Source: Candidatus Zhuqueibacterota bacterium (lineage in GTDB: Bacteria; Zhuqueibacterota; Zhuqueibacteria; Oceanimicrobiales; Oceanimicrobiaceae). Taken from it: DNA of 36,225 bases. The DNA lies in contig JAJDAE010000118.1 of assembly GCA_029262035.1 (NCBI GenBank), positions 1 through 36,225 of the forward strand. Direction: 5' to 3'. This document shows positions 6,301-18,312 of this stretch, in pieces; position 1 is the stretch's first letter, and each line of letters starts with the position of its first letter. Under the pieces are notes generated by a model. That model had not been told where the DNA came from. It made no database searches and was given only the letters and a program-made list of their open reading frames with translations. A program made the translations under genes and the position numbers.

Positions 6301-9021
6301 ATGGAGCATTATAAACTAAATCGGATTATGGGGGCGATTGTTTTTGCAATCTCTTTTGTGGTTTACTGCTTTACCGTTGCACCAACAACTTCTTACTGGG
6401 ACTGTGGCGAATTCATAACCTGCGCACATACAATGGGAGTGCCGCATCCTCCCGGAGCGCCGCTTTTTATTATGATAGGCCGTGTTGTTTCAATGATTCC
6501 CTTCGTGGCGGATATTGGCTTACGTATAAATATGATTTCTGTTTTGGTGAGTGCCCTAACAGTTATGTTTACATATTTAATCGTAGTTCGTTTGTTACGT
6601 GCTTGGAAAGGTTTACCCGAAACAATTGAAGAAAAAATTATTATGTATGGTGGTGGTATTATGGGTGCGCTTGCATTTGCCTTCACCGACTCTTTCTGGT
6701 TTAACGCGGTTGAAGCCGAAGTTTATGCCGTATCTATGTTTTTCACCGGCATCATTGTCTGGCTGATCCTGGTCTGGGAAGAAAAAGCCGATAGCGGCCA
6801 AGGCGATAAAATTTTGCTTTTGATCGCGTATTTAATCGGGCTTGCATTAGGCGTTCATTTACTCAATATTTTAGCTATTCCTACATTATTTTTAATAATT
6901 TATTTTAAACGGTCGGAGTTGAACATAACCAATTTTGCGCTGTGGGGTGCCTTTGCAGCCGCTATATTTGGCACCATCTATCCTGGAGTTGTAAAAGGCA
7001 TACCATGGATGTTAAAAGAGTATGGATTTTTGTCCATTGTTGTCGCAGTTGGTGCTTTACTTGTTGGCATTGTTTACACAATTCAAAACAACAAACGCAT
7101 ACTAAGTCTGTTGCTAATGGGAATGATGCTCATTACCATAAGTTACTCAACTTACACAATGCTGTACATTCGGTCCGGCTTAAAACCAGCGATTAATGAA
7201 AACCATCCTGACACACCGAAAAAATTTGTCAGCTATTTAAATCGAGAGCAATATGGTGATATTCCACTTGACGAACGGCGTGCGCCTATGTGGGAGTATC
7301 AGATTAAGAAAATGTATGTTAGATATTTTGCCTGGCAGTTTATTGGCACCGGCAATACAATTGGAAAAGACGGTTATATTACGGAAACTCTTTCCTTAAG
7401 GGGGTTAATGGGGCTGCCATTTTTAATCGGTTTAATTGGTATGTATTATCATTTCCGACACGACTGGAAGCGAGGTCTATCGGTACTCGCACTATTTGTT
7501 ATGACGGGAATTGCCATAACCATCTATCTGAACCAGGAAAACCCGCAACCCAGGGAGCGTGATTACGCCTATGTCGGATCGTTTTTCGCCTTTGCCATCT
7601 GGATCGGACTTGGAGCCAGTGCCCTTCTTGAATTTGTGAGCAAAAATATTGTGAGTAATCAATCCTTGCGCAAAGTTGGTTTTGGTGGTATGGGAGCGCT
7701 GCTTTTGTTTGCATTACCTGTAAACCTTTTCAATCACAATTATGATACCCACAATCGTTCCGGAAATTACGTGGCGTACGATTATTCTTACAACATTCTG
7801 CAAAGCTGCGAGAAGGATGGGATTTTATTTACAAACGGTGATAACGATACTTTCCCGCTTTGGTTTTTGCAATACGTCTATAATATCCGAACCGATGTAC
7901 GCGTTGTAAATTTAAGTCTTTTAAATACACCCTGGTACATAAAACAATTGCGTGATGAAGAACCGAAGATACCGATCACACTTTCGGATACTCAAATTGA
8001 TGCGCTGCAGGCAAGGCTGTGGGAAAAACCAAGACAAATGAAAATTGAAGTACCCCGTGAAACCATTTTGGCTGAATTGAAAAAGGCCGAGGATAACACC
8101 CAAATCACTTTGGAGGATATTGGTGAAAATCCGGCAGTAGCATGGGAAATGAAAAATACAAAAAATCTCTCCGGTTATCCGGTAATTTTGGTGCAGGATA
8201 TTATGGTCGTGCATATTCTGGCTGCTAACAAATTTAAAAAACCAGTCTATTTTGCAGTGACTGTTGCAGGTTCAAATATGCTTGGCCTGGATAATAATCG
8301 TGGCCGTGGAAAAGGGAAAAATTATTTGAGAATGGACGGTCTGGCTTTCAGAGTTATGCCATACTCCGGACCAACAGATTTTATTTCTCACAAGCAACTG
8401 GAAGACAATCTTTTTAACGAATTTAAATATAGAAATCTGGATAACCCGGATGTTTTCTATAATCGAAATATCAAAGGTTTACTGCAAAATTACAGATCTG
8501 CTTTCCTGCGATTGACCAATTATTATCAAACCATGGACTCCCCTGATGGAAAAGAAAAAGCAATTGGAGTTTTGGATAAAATGGAGGAATTTATACCCGA
8601 AAAGGTAATACCTTTGACCAACTACCAGTTGTCCCTTAATTTTGGGCGATTATATAAAGATGTGGGGCGCCCGGAAGAGCTTGAGCGCCGCATTGATAAT
8701 ATTCTTGAAACGACGAACTTGGCTCCGTATGACAAAATGTTTATGGCGCAGACTTATTTTCATGAACTAAATAACATGGCAAAGGCAGAGTCGTTGGCTA
8801 AATCTGTCGTTGCTGAAAATCCTAATTTTGTGCAAGGATATAGTTGGCTGGTTAGCTTATATTCTCAATCTAAAGAATATGACAAAGGAATTGCGCTGAT
8901 GGAGGAGTGGTTAAAGAAAGTGCCAAATGATCCAAATGCAATGCGGCAGCTCTCCGAGTTAAAAACCCTGGCGTCTTTGGATAGTGCGCAAGGAAAACAG
9001 CCATCATCTAGTCCAGAGTAA
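6301..9021 (+). CDS. DUF2723 (GT117) membrane glycosyltransferase with C-terminal TPR-like region
   Basis: A 906-residue polytopic membrane protein. It begins with a TM helix and then SYWDCGEFITCAHTMGVPHP, where D34 and E37 sit in the first extracytoplasmic loop, as in GT-C enzymes that use polyprenyl-phosphate sugars. Many hydrophobic helices follow to about residue 480, then a soluble part with the family-typical FTNGDNDTFPLWFLQY and NTPWYIKQL segments, and a helical TPR-like C-terminus (about 760-890). DUF2723 proteins are the bacterial relatives of human TMEM260, a protein O-mannosyltransferase. I infer a transferase that adds a sugar, possibly mannose, to exported proteins or glycans. 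A GT2 gene follows one base after the stop, and a Dpm1-like donor synthase lies 5.5 kb downstream in the same block. Confidence 0.87.
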   Translation: MEHYKLNRIMGAIVFAISFVVYCFTVAPTTSYWDCGEFITCAHTMGVPHPPGAPLFIMIGRVVSMIPFVADIGLRINMISVLVSALTVMFTYLIVVRLLRAWKGLPETIEEKIIMYGGGIMGALAFAFTDSFWFNAVEAEVYAVSMFFTGIIVWLILVWEEKADSGQGDKILLLIAYLIGLALGVHLLNILAIPTLFLIIYFKRSELNITNFALWGAFAAAIFGTIYPGVVKGIPWMLKEYGFLSIVVAVGALLVGIVYTIQNNKRILSLLLMGMMLITISYSTYTMLYIRSGLKPAINENHPDTPKKFVSYLNREQYGDIPLDERRAPMWEYQIKKMYVRYFAWQFIGTGNTIGKDGYITETLSLRGLMGLPFLIGLIGMYYHFRHDWKRGLSVLALFVMTGIAITIYLNQENPQPRERDYAYVGSFFAFAIWIGLGASALLEFVSKNIVSNQSLRKVGFGGMGALLLFALPVNLFNHNYDTHNRSGNYVAYDYSYNILQSCEKDGILFTNGDNDTFPLWFLQYVYNIRTDVRVVNLSLLNTPWYIKQLRDEEPKIPITLSDTQIDALQARLWEKPRQMKIEVPRETILAELKKAEDNTQITLEDIGENPAVAWEMKNTKNLSGYPVILVQDIMVVHILAANKFKKPVYFAVTVAGSNMLGLDNNRGRGKGKNYLRMDGLAFRVMPYSGPTDFISHKQLEDNLFNEFKYRNLDNPDVFYNRNIKGLLQNYRSAFLRLTNYYQTMDSPDGKEKAIGVLDKMEEFIPEKVIPLTNYQLSLNFGRLYKDVGRPEELERRIDNILETTNLAPYDKMFMAQTYFHELNNMAKAESLAKSVVAENPNFVQGYSWLVSLYSQSKEYDKGIALMEEWLKKVPNDPNAMRQLSELKTLASLDSAQGKQPSSSPE

Positions 9022-13544: not shown

Positions 13545-14453
13545 ATGGCGAAATTGAAATTGTTAAAAAATAAAGTTTTGGTTACTGGTGCAAATGGTTT
13601 ATTGGGTCAGCAAATAGTAACACAACTTAAGGATGGCTTTGAAGTGATGGCTACCGGGCGAGATGATATGCTTGCTCTCGGCGACATTTGCAGTTATTCA
13701 AAATGTGATATCACCAATCGCAAAGAAACAATTGATTTAATTAAATCATTTAAACCTCAATATATTGTTAATTCCGCAGCCTATACAAATGTTGACAAGG
13801 CGGAAGAAGAAAAAGAGCTGTGTTGGAGAATAAATGTTTCCGGGGTTGAATATTTGGCACAGGCCGCAAAACAAATCGGTGCAAAACTCGTGCATATTTC
13901 CACGGATTATGTGTTTGATGGAAAAAGTGGTGGTTACCATGAAAAATCTATCCCTAATCCTTTAGGATATTATGGACGTTCCAAGCTTGCCGGAGAAAAC
14001 GCAATTCTTGCAAGTGGGGTTGAGCATATGATTCTGCGGACCATGGTACTTTACGGCAGGGGAATAAATCTAAAACCAAATTTTGCAATTTGGCTGATAA
14101 ACAATCTGCAACATGACCATAATGTTCGAATTGTGGATGATCAGTTTGGGCATCCGACACTTGCAGATGATTTAGCTCTGGCAATAAAATATCTGATTGA
14201 AAAAAATAGTAGCGGAACATTTCATGTCGTTGGAGATGAGTGTGGTAATCGTTTCGATTTCTCAATTAAGTTAGCTGAGATTTTTGGCTTTGACTGCACA
14301 TTAATCTCACCTTTAAAAACCGCAGAACTAAATCAAAAGGCGCCAAGACCTTTGAATTCAAGTTTTGAATTGGATAAATTGTATTCAGAAATTGACTTTA
14401 AATTAAGCGGTATCGAAGAAGGAATAAAAAAGTTAAAAGAGAAATTAGGGTAA
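13545..14453 (+). CDS. rfbD: RmlD-like dTDP-4-dehydrorhamnose reductase (SDR family)
   Basis: A 302-residue extended short-chain dehydrogenase. The NAD(P)-binding motif GANGLLGQ (15-22) is close to the N-terminus, followed by NSAAYTNVDKAE, HISTDYVFDG (117-126) and the catalytic YGRSK (Y143, K147). These are hallmarks of RmlD/RfbD, the last enzyme of dTDP-L-rhamnose synthesis, which reduces the 4-keto sugar in the cytoplasm. rmlA, rmlB and rmlC are not in the window, so an equivalent reductase for another nucleotide sugar is possible. A role in supplying sugar to the neighbouring glycosyltransferases fits the context. The ATG has only a weak upstream GGTGA. Confidence 0.85.
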   Translation: MAKLKLLKNKVLVTGANGLLGQQIVTQLKDGFEVMATGRDDMLALGDICSYSKCDITNRKETIDLIKSFKPQYIVNSAAYTNVDKAEEEKELCWRINVSGVEYLAQAAKQIGAKLVHISTDYVFDGKSGGYHEKSIPNPLGYYGRSKLAGENAILASGVEHMILRTMVLYGRGINLKPNFAIWLINNLQHDHNVRIVDDQFGHPTLADDLALAIKYLIEKNSSGTFHVVGDECGNRFDFSIKLAEIFGFDCTLISPLKTAELNQKAPRPLNSSFELDKLYSEIDFKLSGIEEGIKKLKEKLG

Positions 14454-14478: not shown

Positions 14479-15216
14479 ATGATAGAGAAAATACTGGTAA
14501 TTATACCAACTTATAATGAAATCGAAAATATAAGCGAGATCATTGACGAAGTTATCGGATTAAATATCCCCAACCTGTCAGTGCTGGTCGTAGATGACAA
14601 TTCACCTGATGGAACCGGCAAATTGGTAAGTGAGATAGCCAAAAAAGACCACAGGGTAAAGTTGAAGGAGCGTAAAGGGAAGTTGGGCTTGGGTACAGCT
14701 TATATTGAGGGATTTAAGCTGGCTTTGGCAGAAGGTTTCGATTATGTGTTTGAGATGGATGCAGACCACTCGCATAATCCCGAAGAAATTCCGCATATGT
14801 TGGAAAAGGCGAAATCTTTTGATTTGGTTATCGGGTCGCGCTATCAAACAGGGGTGAATGTAATCAATTGGCCCTTTTCAAGGCTTTTAATGAGTTTGTT
14901 TGCCAATTGGTATACTCGTTTCATCACACGTCTGCCAGTTCGGGATTGCACCAGCGGCTTCAAATGCTTTCGCATTAAGGTACTGCAGAATATTAAGATG
15001 GATAAAATTTCCAGTGATGGCTATACATTTCAAATAGAAATGACTTATAAGGCCTGGATTAGAGGATTTAAGATTACGGAGCACCCGATTATTTTTTATG
15101 ATAGAAAAAAGGGTGTTTCGAAGATGAGTATAAAAATTGTGCAGGAAGCGGTATGGATTGTATGGAGACTGCGTATCTGGACTATCGTTTATAAAGTGAA
15201 AAAATGGCTGAGATAG
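14479..15216 (+). CDS. Polyprenol monophosphomannose synthase (Dpm1-like GT2)
   Basis: A 245-residue GT2 of the dolichol-phosphate mannosyltransferase type. It transfers mannose (or a related hexose) from GDP-sugar to polyprenyl phosphate at the inner membrane. Signatures are IIPTYNE (8-14), VVDDNSPDGTG (DD at 39-40), GLGTAYIEGF, the metal-binding MDADHSHNPEEI (DAD at 94-96) and DCTSGFKCFR. It is a single-domain enzyme without the C-terminal TM helices or GtrA-type tail seen in long Dpm homologues, though the last helix is basic and amphipathic. The ATG at 14479 directly abuts GGAAG, an unusually close spacing. Its 3' end overlaps the next gene by 13 bases. Its product is a plausible donor for the DUF2723 enzyme upstream. 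Confidence 0.9.
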   Translation: MIEKILVIIPTYNEIENISEIIDEVIGLNIPNLSVLVVDDNSPDGTGKLVSEIAKKDHRVKLKERKGKLGLGTAYIEGFKLALAEGFDYVFEMDADHSHNPEEIPHMLEKAKSFDLVIGSRYQTGVNVINWPFSRLLMSLFANWYTRFITRLPVRDCTSGFKCFRIKVLQNIKMDKISSDGYTFQIEMTYKAWIRGFKITEHPIIFYDRKKGVSKMSIKIVQEAVWIVWRLRIWTIVYKVKKWLR

Positions 15217-17339
15217 TCAAGAAGTCCATTCCTCGCCGCAAGAAAGAAAACCCTCAAAAAATCCAGCTTTCAATCATTATTGTAAACTTCAATGTGAAGG
15301 AATTTTTGGAGCAAACGCTAGTCTCCGTTTTTAAAGCTGTAGCGGGTATCCCCACCGAAGTTATCGTCATAGACAATGCATCAATTGATGGCAGTATTGA
15401 ACTTCTAAAAAAGCAATTTCCTAAAGTTAAAACCATAGCCAATAAAAACAATGTGGGGTTTGGCAAGGCATCGAATCAGGGTTTGCGGATAGCTCGGGGC
15501 AAATTCTTCGTACTATTAAATCCTGACACGATCGTACAGGGTGATACCTTCACAAAAACAATTACTTTTTTTGATGAAAACAGTGAAACAGGTTTACTCG
15601 GTTGCAAAATACTCAATCCGGATGGTTCACTTCAACTTGCCTGCAGACGGAGTTTTCCAACACCCTGGGTGGCGTTTTCCAAACTAAGTGGCCTAAGCGC
15701 TCTTTTTTCTAAAAGTGAACTCTTTGGCAAATACAATCTTACCTATCTTGATCCTGACGAGGCTTATGAAGTTGAGGCGATTTCCGGATCGTTTATGATG
15801 ATCCGTCGCGAGACTGTTGAACAAGTTGGCTTATTAGATGAAGCTTTTTTCATGTATGGTGAAGATTTGGACTGGTGCTATCGTGTTGGGCAAAGTGGCT
15901 GGAAAGTGATGTATTATCCACACACACAAATCATTCATTTTAAAGGGGAAAGCGCTAAAAAGGCCAAGCTGGACAGCATGAAAACCTTCTATTCTGCCAT
16001 GAGCCTTTTTGCTGAGAAACATTTAAAAAATAAATATTTTTTTATGCCGTATTGGTTTATCTGGATTGCAATCTGGTTGCGCGGCGCTCTATCATTCTTA
16101 TTTAGCCTTGTCACAACTACCGGGGTTGGACTAACGGATTTTTCATTTTTGAGCCTAAGCCTTTTAGGTGGTGTTTATTTTCGTTTCGGCCATTTTGAAA
16201 ATATTACACAATTTCTACCCGTAATATTTCTGTACCTAACTATCTGGATGACTATTCTAAAAAGTTTTGGTTGTTACAACAAAAATCGTTTTTCTTCATC
16301 GTCAGCAGGATTAGCATTTCTAACCGGATTTTTACTGAATACCAGCCTGACTTTCTTTTTGCCGCAATATGCGTTTTCCAGGGCGGCGGTAATATATAGC
16401 AGTTTGATAGGTTTTGTCGCTATTCCCGGTTGGCGGTTACTTATTAAACTTCTGGCTACTTCCGGGGTTATGCCGTTTCGCGGTACATTTGGTAAGTTGC
16501 TTCTGGCCAGAAATACGATTCTTGTCGGTGATTTGGAATCATGCCGGAGGTTGATACAAAAGTTGAACGTACAAATTGAAAGCGGATATAATGTAACCGG
16601 CCTTGTTTTAACTAACGGGGATGCTGTAGGGGAGACAATTAGTGGTGCAAAAGTTTTGGGCGGCATAGATAATATCGCTTCCATTCTTGATGATAAGAGT
16701 ATCAGTGAAGTAATATTCTCTACTCATCAGCTCTCTTATGATCAAATTTTAAATATAATTTCGACTACCGACAACCCCAGGATAAATTTTAAACTCATTC
16801 CAAGCAATTTGGATGTAATTATAGGGAAAGCATCAATTGATAGAATCGACGATGTTCCTTTTTTGGAGATAGATTACAAGCTTCACAAAAAGGGATATAA
16901 ATTTTTAAAGAGAACAAATGATATCGTATTATCCATTTTGTTATTGTTTTTGTCACTTCCTTTCTTTTTATTTAAGAGATTTGTCGTAAACTCAAAGATT
17001 GTTGAAAAAAGAATCTGTGGTTTAAGTGATATGGTTATTTTGTCAGAGTTTGAGGGCAGAGGAAGGACCATAAGAAAAATACCGTATTTATGGTCGGTTT
17101 TAAAAGGAGACCTGAGCTTTGTTGGGGCGGAGTTACAAAATGTTGATGATGAAGAAAATGATACTGATACTGATTCCATCGCTCCGAGGTTAAAACCGGG
17201 TATTACCGGACTTGCACAAATAAATTATAATAAAAATTTAACGCCTGAAGAAAAGGATAAATACTTGGTCTATTATCTGAAAAACTATTCACCCTTTTTA
17301 GATATTGAAATCCTTTTTAAGGCACTTTTTAACAGATAA
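15204..17339 (+). CDS. GT2 glycosyltransferase fused to a degenerate WbaP-like phosphoglycosyl transferase
   Basis: A 711-residue fusion. Residues 22-260 form a COG1216-type GT2 domain ([18 protein letters not shown] with D57, LLNPDTIV with NPD at 106-108, and a GEDLDWCYR segment). Four or five TM helices span about 283-415. A Rossmann-like CoA_binding_3 region follows (about 436-545, starting [15 protein letters not shown]). The C-terminus (565-711) resembles the bacterial sugar transferase (PF02397-type) domain: KRTNDIVLS, then [11 protein letters not shown] and [13 protein letters not shown]. The central catalytic block of that family, with its usual SPGP...KFRSM motif and acidic dyad, is not recognisable and the region is shortened. 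The GT2 part is probably active and the C-terminal part perhaps structural. Expected at the inner membrane in glycan assembly. Confidence 0.85.
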
Positions 17340-17349
17340 AATTAAAATT

Positions 17350-18312
17350 ATGAGTGAATATATATTAGAATTCGAAAAGCCAGTTGTTGAATTAGAAAAG
17401 AAAATTCGTGAAATGCGTGAATATTCGGAAACTGAAAATGTCGAGATATCCGAAGAAATCACTCGTTTGGAAGAAAAAGCTGAAAAGCTTCGTACGGATA
17501 TCTATTCCAAGCTTTCGCGATGGGAAATACTGCAGATAGCGCGGCACCCGCAACGCCCATACACCAGAGATTACATCGAGCACATGTTCGATGATTTTGT
17601 TGAATTGCATGGAGACCGTGCGTTTGGTGATGACCCTGCAATAATTAGTGGGATTGGAAAATTGGGTAATCGTAAAGTTGTGGCAATTGGTCACCAAAAA
17701 GGTAGAACCACCAAACAGAAGCTCTTTCGTAATTTTGGCATGCCACACCCTGAAGGTTATAGAAAAGCTTTACGAGTGATGAAACTGGCAGAAAAGTTTA
17801 ACCGGCCGGTTGTCACTTTTATAGATACGCCGGGTGCATTTCCCGGAATAGGCGCTGAGGAAAGAGGACAGGCAGAAGCCATCGCAAAAAATTTACTTGA
17901 AATGTCACGGCTTCGTGTGCCGATTATTGTGGTTATTATTGGTGAAGGCGCTTCCGGCGGAGCTTTAGGTATCGGCCTTGGCGATAGAATTCTCATGATG
18001 GAAAATACCTGGTATTCCGTTATTTCACCTGAAGGATGTGCTGCCATTTTGTGGCACGATAGTACTAAAGCCGTTCAGGCGGCTGAAGCCATGAAATTAA
18101 CAGCCGTTGATCTTCTTGAATTGGGGGTTGTGGACAAGTCTGTTAGGGAGCCATTAGGAGGCGCGCATCACGACTACGAAAAAGCTGCACAAATTCTCAA
18201 AGAAGAAATTAACGCAGAGTTGGAGAAACTGGAAAAAGTACCCCCGCAGGAACTCATAGAAAACCGAATAGAAAAATATGCACAAATGGGCTTTTTTGAG
18301 GAACAAAGTTGA
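17350..18312 (+). CDS. accA: Acetyl-CoA carboxylase carboxyltransferase subunit alpha
   Basis: A 320-residue alpha subunit of the carboxyltransferase half of acetyl-CoA carboxylase, which makes malonyl-CoA for fatty-acid synthesis together with AccD. The N-terminal coiled coil, [11 protein letters not shown], the [23 protein letters not shown] region, [21 protein letters not shown] and [17 protein letters not shown] are all characteristic, and length is normal. I start at ATG 17350, which gives the typical short [11 protein letters not shown] lead; an upstream in-frame codon at 17305 lies inside the previous gene. It follows the fusion glycosyltransferase by only 10 bases and may share its transcript. 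accD is not in the window. Confidence 0.96.

Follow-up and report, generated by a model that had tools for sequence, protein, structure and literature searches.

Monotopic phosphoglycosyl transferases (PGTs, PF02397) transfer sugar-1-phosphate to polyprenyl phosphate. The large WbaP-type members (PDB 8t53 and 9s7s; PF13727 plus PF02397) combine a transmembrane (TM) bundle and a Rossmann-type "DUF" with the PGT fold and its reentrant helix, and PglC (8e37, 8g1n) is a small monotopic PGT. According to passages in Entova et al. (2018, PMC6133551), K7 of PglC forms a salt bridge with D169, R8 contacts a phospholipid head group, P24 is a helix breaker and proposed mediator of polyprenol binding, and the K7A and P24A variants are inactive. 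A passage of PMC10942596, referring to O'Toole 2021, describes Bi-PGTs, in which a functional domain is fused to a PGT core called catalytic. Our search of open-licence PMC literature found no report of PGT pseudoenzymes or degenerate initiating glycosyltransferases, and in the passages returned from that literature the only "catalytically inactive" PGT homologs were mutants of PglC.

The gene described here lies in the window, i.e., the whole stretch of 36,225 nucleotides that was analysed. Its product shares with WbaP-type PGTs the TM bundle, the Rossmann DUF, the PGT fold and the reentrant helix, but lacks the Asp-Glu dyad, the KFRSM/RVG block and the PRP arginine, and has a family 2 glycosyltransferase (GT2) domain joined in front. 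With PglC it has in common the C-terminal fold and the K-R, Pro and Asp residues of the membrane helix and lock, whereas D93-E94 of PglC is replaced by R-K and the PGT domain is not a stand-alone protein. Like Bi-PGTs, it combines a PGT core with a functional domain; unlike them, its PGT half is without the dyad across the whole family. We conclude that it is a real, conserved pseudoenzyme fusion, each part of which comes from a known family.

Domain layout of the fusion protein

The fusion gene and its parts are as follows.

15204..17339, plus strand: GT2/WbaP-like fusion, 711 aa, ATG start; orthologues have about the same length
15261..16028, plus strand: GT2 domain (PF00535), residues 20-275, acidic motifs kept
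15519..15527, plus strand: N106-P-D108, which we take to be the GT2 metal/donor motif; N and D in 115/115 rows
15858..15875, plus strand: G219-E-D-L-D-W224, presumably the GT2 ED motif, in which the catalytic base is expected; G, E, D, L and D in 115/115 rows, W in 106/115
16044..16463, plus strand: bundle of about four TM helices in the AlphaFold2 model, residues 281-420; profile match to WbaP 8t53 and 9s7s
16485..16871, plus strand: Rossmann-type CoA_binding_3/WbaP "DUF" (PF13727), residues 428-556; profile match to WbaP chains
16890..16985, plus strand: equivalent of the reentrant membrane helix of the PGT domain, residues 563-594, with K569-R570, D573 and P586
16998..17051, plus strand: degenerate beta-hairpin, residues 599-616, at the place of GPVFFRQERVG..FxxxKFRSM in intact enzymes
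17073..17078, plus strand: R624-K625 at the catalytic Asp-Glu site, by alignment
17100..17132, plus strand: kept LKGDLSFVG loop, residues 633-643, with E643 at the Arg of PRP
17193..17225, plus strand: second kept block, residues 664-674; P665 in 88, G666 in 114, T668 in 93, G669 in 96 and Q672 in 86 of 117 relatives
17244..17333, plus strand: C-terminal helices, residues 681-710, with Y691, N694, D700 and E702

Pfam detects Glycos_transf_2 at residues 23-206 (5.5e-22), CoA_binding_3 at residues 371-533 (9e-10) and Bac_transf at residues 623-708 (4.7e-18), the last of which spans only positions 88-174 of the 179-position profile. The PF02397 score over this limited part is 65.8 bits against a cut-off of 27, and on this score alone the fusion would be annotated as a PGT. 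In the AlphaFold2 model, the helices of the bundle are residues 281-328, 334-354, 365-385 and 393-420, and G442 of the Rossmann domain is invariant in the 55-row alignment. The four-TM bundle and the CoA_binding_3/DUF domain are placed ahead of the PGT domain, as is characteristic of large WbaP-type PGTs.

The fusion has the GT-A fold and the conserved acidic motifs expected of GT2 enzymes. N106, D108, E220, D221, D223, R227 and H245 are found in all of the 115 near-complete family rows, and the domain matches the GT2 structure 6p61 with a VIA Z of 24.2 (186 residues, 1.8 A), while all of its NCBIfam matches are far below cut-off. On the basis of the invariant motifs and the model, the N-terminus is predicted to be a working GT2.

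The model of the whole fusion, built from 55 window and named-locus sequences, has a mean pLDDT of 84.0, and its top PDB match by Foldseek is WbaP 8t53; a profile search with the fusion matches structures of GT2, WbaP and PglC. With the whole model, VIA was dominated by the GT2 part, and residues 556-711 were therefore modelled and searched alone (pLDDT 90.7, pTM 0.83). The four PDB chains below E 0.001 for this C-terminal model are all PglC or WbaP, with VIA Z 18.0 to WbaP (148 residues, 2.6 A, 33% identity) and 16.4 (148 residues, 2.8 A) and 16.3 to two PglC entries. These values indicate that the modelled C-terminal domain retains the PGT fold, including the reentrant membrane helix of monotopic PGTs (PF02397).

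The Asp-Glu catalytic dyad of these enzymes and the SPGP/KFRSM block are both missing. In the sequence alignment, R624-K625 of the fusion is opposite D93-E94 of PglC and E643 opposite R112, while K569-R570 is opposite K7-R8, P586 opposite P24 and D700 opposite D169 (PglC numbering is the chain index minus 4, by our own reckoning). The alignment to PglC (8e37) and WbaP (8t53) has a gap-free stretch at the lost dyad, which includes LDELPQLFNVLKGDMSFIGPR. Strands 599-605 and 610-616 are still modelled as a hairpin where the FxQ..KFRS motif was, which suggests that the frame of this block outlives its residues.

Conservation and loss among the relatives

Relatives were collected from related genomes and from the named genome contigs. 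The contig search gave at least 560 relatives, of which 80 were kept, labelled KSB1, Calditrichota, Ignavibacteria, Bacteroidota and Neomarinimicrobiota, among others. After leaving out identical copies, L006 (the window gene again), a fragment (L059, 203 bits) and the GT2-only L066 and L067, 117 distinct proteins were aligned. As the control set, 24 intact PGTs were obtained from 31 rows by removing 7 (L004, L005 and non-PGT ORFs).

None of the 117 relatives has a D-E pair at the dyad columns, and single acids there are few (at 624, D in 6 and E in 5; at 625, E in 1). The PRP arginine at position 643 is present in 3/117 relatives versus 24/24 intact PGTs, the loop that follows KFRSM has 22 columns at which every relative is gapped, and the hairpin 599-616 is gapped in about 45-57 of them. 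The KFRSM motif was also not found in 44 further distinct proteins. Within their last 200 residues, 16 of the 117 proteins and one of the 44 contain a "DE.P" pattern, but none of these lies at the catalytic columns: in 16 of the 17 cases it precedes the membrane-helix KRxxD, usually where the Rossmann domain ends, and in L054 it is 81 residues past KRxxD, inside a variable loop.

K569, R570 and D573 are kept in 117/117 relatives and P586 in 108, and conservation is also high at G635 (116), S638 (106), G641 (116), Y691 (116), N694 (108) and D700 (115). E702 is present in 105/117, whereas 23 of the 24 intact PGTs have K at this position, which points to a family-specific change. Taken together with the roles of the corresponding PglC residues, this pattern suggests that the family has shed the catalytic and nucleotide-sugar parts of the PGT, while the membrane and carrier-facing parts have stayed.

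The Nei-Gojobori method gives, in 16/16 close pairs, dN/dS values of 0.09-0.28 for the dead domain and, where computable, 0.03-0.15 for GT2, with dS saturated in several pairs; these values indicate purifying selection on the dead domain. Mean pairwise identity, calculated over 1500 random pairs from 115 rows, is 63% for GT2, 35% for TM, 39% for Rossmann and 34% for the dead domain, within which residues 662-706 reach 48%. A few relatives (e.g., L024 and L035) have one internal stop in the match. Sequencing error or a pseudogene was ruled out by the frame kept in hundreds of relatives, and chance was likewise rejected because the same state is found in 117/117 relatives and is accompanied by purifying selection. 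The preliminary description of this DNA, in which an intact GT2 was said to be fused to a degenerate PGT core, is thus confirmed, the dyad and the SPGP/KFRSM block being absent and all of the 117 relatives being alike; the comparison with PglC and WbaP that it proposed gave no refutation, since the fold is retained in the model and the dyad is gone in the sequence alignment.

Distribution, origin and neighbouring genes

With the family profile at a threshold of E 1e-100, the fusion gene was found in 76/82 genomes of the phylum of the window, in 83/100 genomes of the phylum of a Neomarinimicrobiota genome, and in 125/247 genomes of the phylum of a Chlorobi/Ignavibacteria-type genome, which was taken as Bacteroidota. 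The occurrence of the same fusion in other FCB genomes, which the preliminary description had proposed to look for, is therefore established for these samples, nearly always as one copy per genome. Because the fusion is kept in most of two phyla and about half of the third, the dead half has probably retained a function, e.g., to hold a lipid carrier or to anchor the enzyme. Since the PGT half is dead in the whole sampled family, the loss of catalysis probably dates from before the sampled FCB groups diverged.

In the Bacteroidota sample, 85 of 126 profile matches extend past position 620, while 15 end at 560-619, 7 at 430-559 and 19 before 430, some of these being gene pieces or contig ends. 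Inspection of 50 loci revealed forms of 611-620 aa (L158-L161), which have a relic C-terminus and are still located between the Dol-P-Man-synthase-like and accA-like genes listed below, and forms of 390-430 aa (L167-L174), which consist of GT2 and a Rossmann stub without the TM bundle. In a GT2 tree made with a quick method from 58 of 113 rows (30 of 85 family rows taken at random; the "short" label includes the non-family L066), short forms nest within long ones at more than one place with moderate support. Since the WbaP part has been eroded or lost in some Bacteroidota and GT2 has been kept, the WbaP part is not indispensable everywhere. The family was also seen within an open frame of 1492 aa (L177 956), which may represent another fusion or may simply be overlong.

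Five genomes of the phylum have, alongside the dead form, intact GT2-WbaP fusions of 753-813 aa (L061-L065; in two pieces in G045). Their domain order is as in the dead fusion, and the dyad is present in 5/6. L062 (759 aa), one of the 24 controls, has E-K at the dyad, with LEKIPQ instead of LDEIPQ, and judging from this change may itself be losing activity. In a tree of the WbaP part, with 30 family rows picked for diversity from the 117, the dead family forms one clade (100/100), and the fused intact proteins (97/98) are grouped with stand-alone intact PGTs. Descent of the dead family from the L061-L065 fusions was ruled out by this separation, and because the intact fusions group with stand-alone PGTs, the GT2-PGT fusion seems to have arisen twice, independently. 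Such repeated fusion suggests that attachment to a large PGT is of advantage to a GT2. Intact PGT domains were also observed in frames of 828 and 944 aa (L088 1645 and G068 C150), possibly further fusions.

The neighbouring genes considered in this study are as follows.

6301..9021, plus strand: TMEM260-like protein O-mannosyltransferase homologue (PF11028, 5.5e-67)
13545..14453, plus strand: RmlD-like dTDP-4-dehydrorhamnose reductase (PF04321, 4.9e-78); homologue in 14/80 related loci
14479..15216, plus strand: Dol-P-Man-synthase-like GT2 (PF00535), the conserved upstream neighbour
17305..18312, plus strand: downstream neighbour, which we take to be accA-like; homologue in 76/80 related loci, some flanks incomplete

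A homologue of the Dol-P-Man-synthase-like gene is located upstream in 61 of the 80 related loci kept from at least 560, some with incomplete flanks; its best NCBIfam matches are AglJ, PgfS and PpgS, all below cut-off. The TTG start listed for the accA-like ORF lies inside the fusion gene, and the true start is probably further downstream. The TMEM260-like gene is present in 79/82 genomes of the phylum of the window. Among the 30 own-phylum genomes with both genes on a single contig, 29 have the TMEM260-like gene 6-14 kb upstream of the fusion and in the same orientation, in a count based on one family row per genome (76 genomes) and mainly on the best TMEM260-like row of each. Since this gene is near-universal in the Bacteroidota sample (246/247), its presence says little, and gene order says more. 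An RmlC-like gene is located on another contig of the own genome.

A Wzx-type flippase (PF01943/PF13440) is downstream of the fusion in 30/54 loci, an intact PGT ORF is present in 32 of the 80 related loci kept from at least 560, and an intact WbaP-type PGT is 1.4-5.2 kb upstream in 29 of the 53 loci with at least 4.5 kb of upstream sequence. No adjoining intact PGT was found in the window or in the loci labelled KSB1, Calditrichota or Neomarinimicrobiota, and no nearby Wzx-type flippase in the loci with these labels. The own genome encodes three other PF02397 proteins matched over 1-178, plus two weaker ones, and at least one full PF02397 protein was found in 11/11 further genomes. Because intact PGTs are thus present in every genome checked and are often adjoining, the proposal in the preliminary description that the fusion merges the first two glycan steps or replaces the first one is not supported. 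Contig C196 of the own genome carries two neighbouring PF02397-like proteins of 398 and 538 aa (L004 and L005) with partial profile coverage (70-78 bits) and D-E-L/F-P kept, unlike ordinary PGTs.

Possible roles of the dead half

We consider it reasonably probable that the protein is an active GT2 whose attached large PGT, conserved but catalytically dead, provides a membrane platform and probably a lipid-carrier dock. The purifying selection on the dead domain and the gene neighbourhood of lipid-linked glycan assembly, with the Dol-P-Man-synthase-like gene, the accA-like gene and the Wzx-type flippase, speak in its favour. The dead domain, the TM bundle and the Rossmann domain would together form the platform, which would keep an acceptor linked to polyprenyl phosphate, or the carrier itself, positioned for GT2, and GT2 would then attach the next sugar at the cytoplasmic side of the membrane. 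The initial sugar would come from another enzyme, i.e., an intact PGT and/or the Dol-P-Man-synthase-like neighbour. The earlier suggestion of a membrane scaffold or lipid-carrier binder that delivers acceptor to GT2 agrees with the kept reentrant helix, salt-bridge partner and Pro, from which we infer the lipid binding; the erosion or loss of the WbaP part in several Bacteroidota lineages that keep GT2 speaks against its being essential. Points against docking are that folding and anchoring of the domain might be the only reason why the salt bridge and Pro persist, that several Bacteroidota lost the domain, that the dead domain is less conserved than GT2 and that the hairpin is often gapped.

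In another reading, the WbaP-derived half is an inherited membrane anchor and dimerisation module that binds no ligand and is slowly eroding, with selection keeping GT2 alone. The shortened Bacteroidota forms of both size classes (611-620 and 390-430 aa), their nesting within long ones at more than one place in the moderately supported GT2 tree, and the fact that GT2 is by far the best conserved part all agree with it. However, an anchor of this kind fits poorly with the low dN/dS of the dead domain in 16/16 pairs, with the 48% identity of residues 662-706 against 35% for the TM bundle and 39% for Rossmann, and with the near fixation of the family-specific E702 against K in nearly all intact enzymes, and we regard it as unlikely, though with a chance that deserves attention. 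We give a somewhat smaller chance to a regulatory pseudoenzyme, in which the dead half would use the TM/DUF interface known from WbaP to form a mixed dimer with an intact large PGT and couple step one to the GT2 step two, perhaps with UMP sensing by the Rossmann domain. Passages of PMC10942596 report that WbaP forms a dimer via TM helix 3 and the DUF and that the DUF is stabilised by UMP, UDP and UTP, and the intact PGTs upstream in 29/53 loci and present in 11/11 genomes could serve as partners; yet no adjoining intact PGT was found in the window or in the KSB1, Calditrichota and Neomarinimicrobiota loci, although the own genome has intact PGTs elsewhere.

An active initiating PGT was ruled out by the dyad missing in 117/117. 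That the domain remains a PGT with a rearranged active site is extremely improbable: the fold is kept and some members have a single acid at 624 or 625, but no member has a D-E pair, the PRP arginine is nearly always lost, the 22 loop columns are gapped throughout, and the substitutions at the dyad are diverse, not convergent.

If the preferred reading, a dead PGT acting as a platform for GT2, is true, a catalytically dead PGT has been kept by selection across several phyla inside a glycosyltransferase, and it would be a natural experiment on the role of the PGT fold beyond catalysis, namely binding and presenting a polyprenyl carrier at the membrane surface.

A passage of a 2025 review (PMC12871550) calls the core O-glycan machinery of Bacteroidota unidentified, and our search of open-licence PMC literature for this machinery found nothing. 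Motivated by this review, we mention a speculative and rather improbable possibility, in which the TMEM260-like protein, the Dol-P-Man-synthase-like GT2, RmlD and the fusion would form the machinery of the Bacteroidota mannose-rhamnose-glucuronic acid O-glycan core. The dead PGT pocket, ancestrally for polyprenyl monophosphate, would then hold polyprenyl-phosphate-mannose made by the neighbour, to which GT2 would add the next sugar. The conserved gene set with the Dol-P-Man-synthase-like and TMEM260-like genes offers candidates for this pathway.
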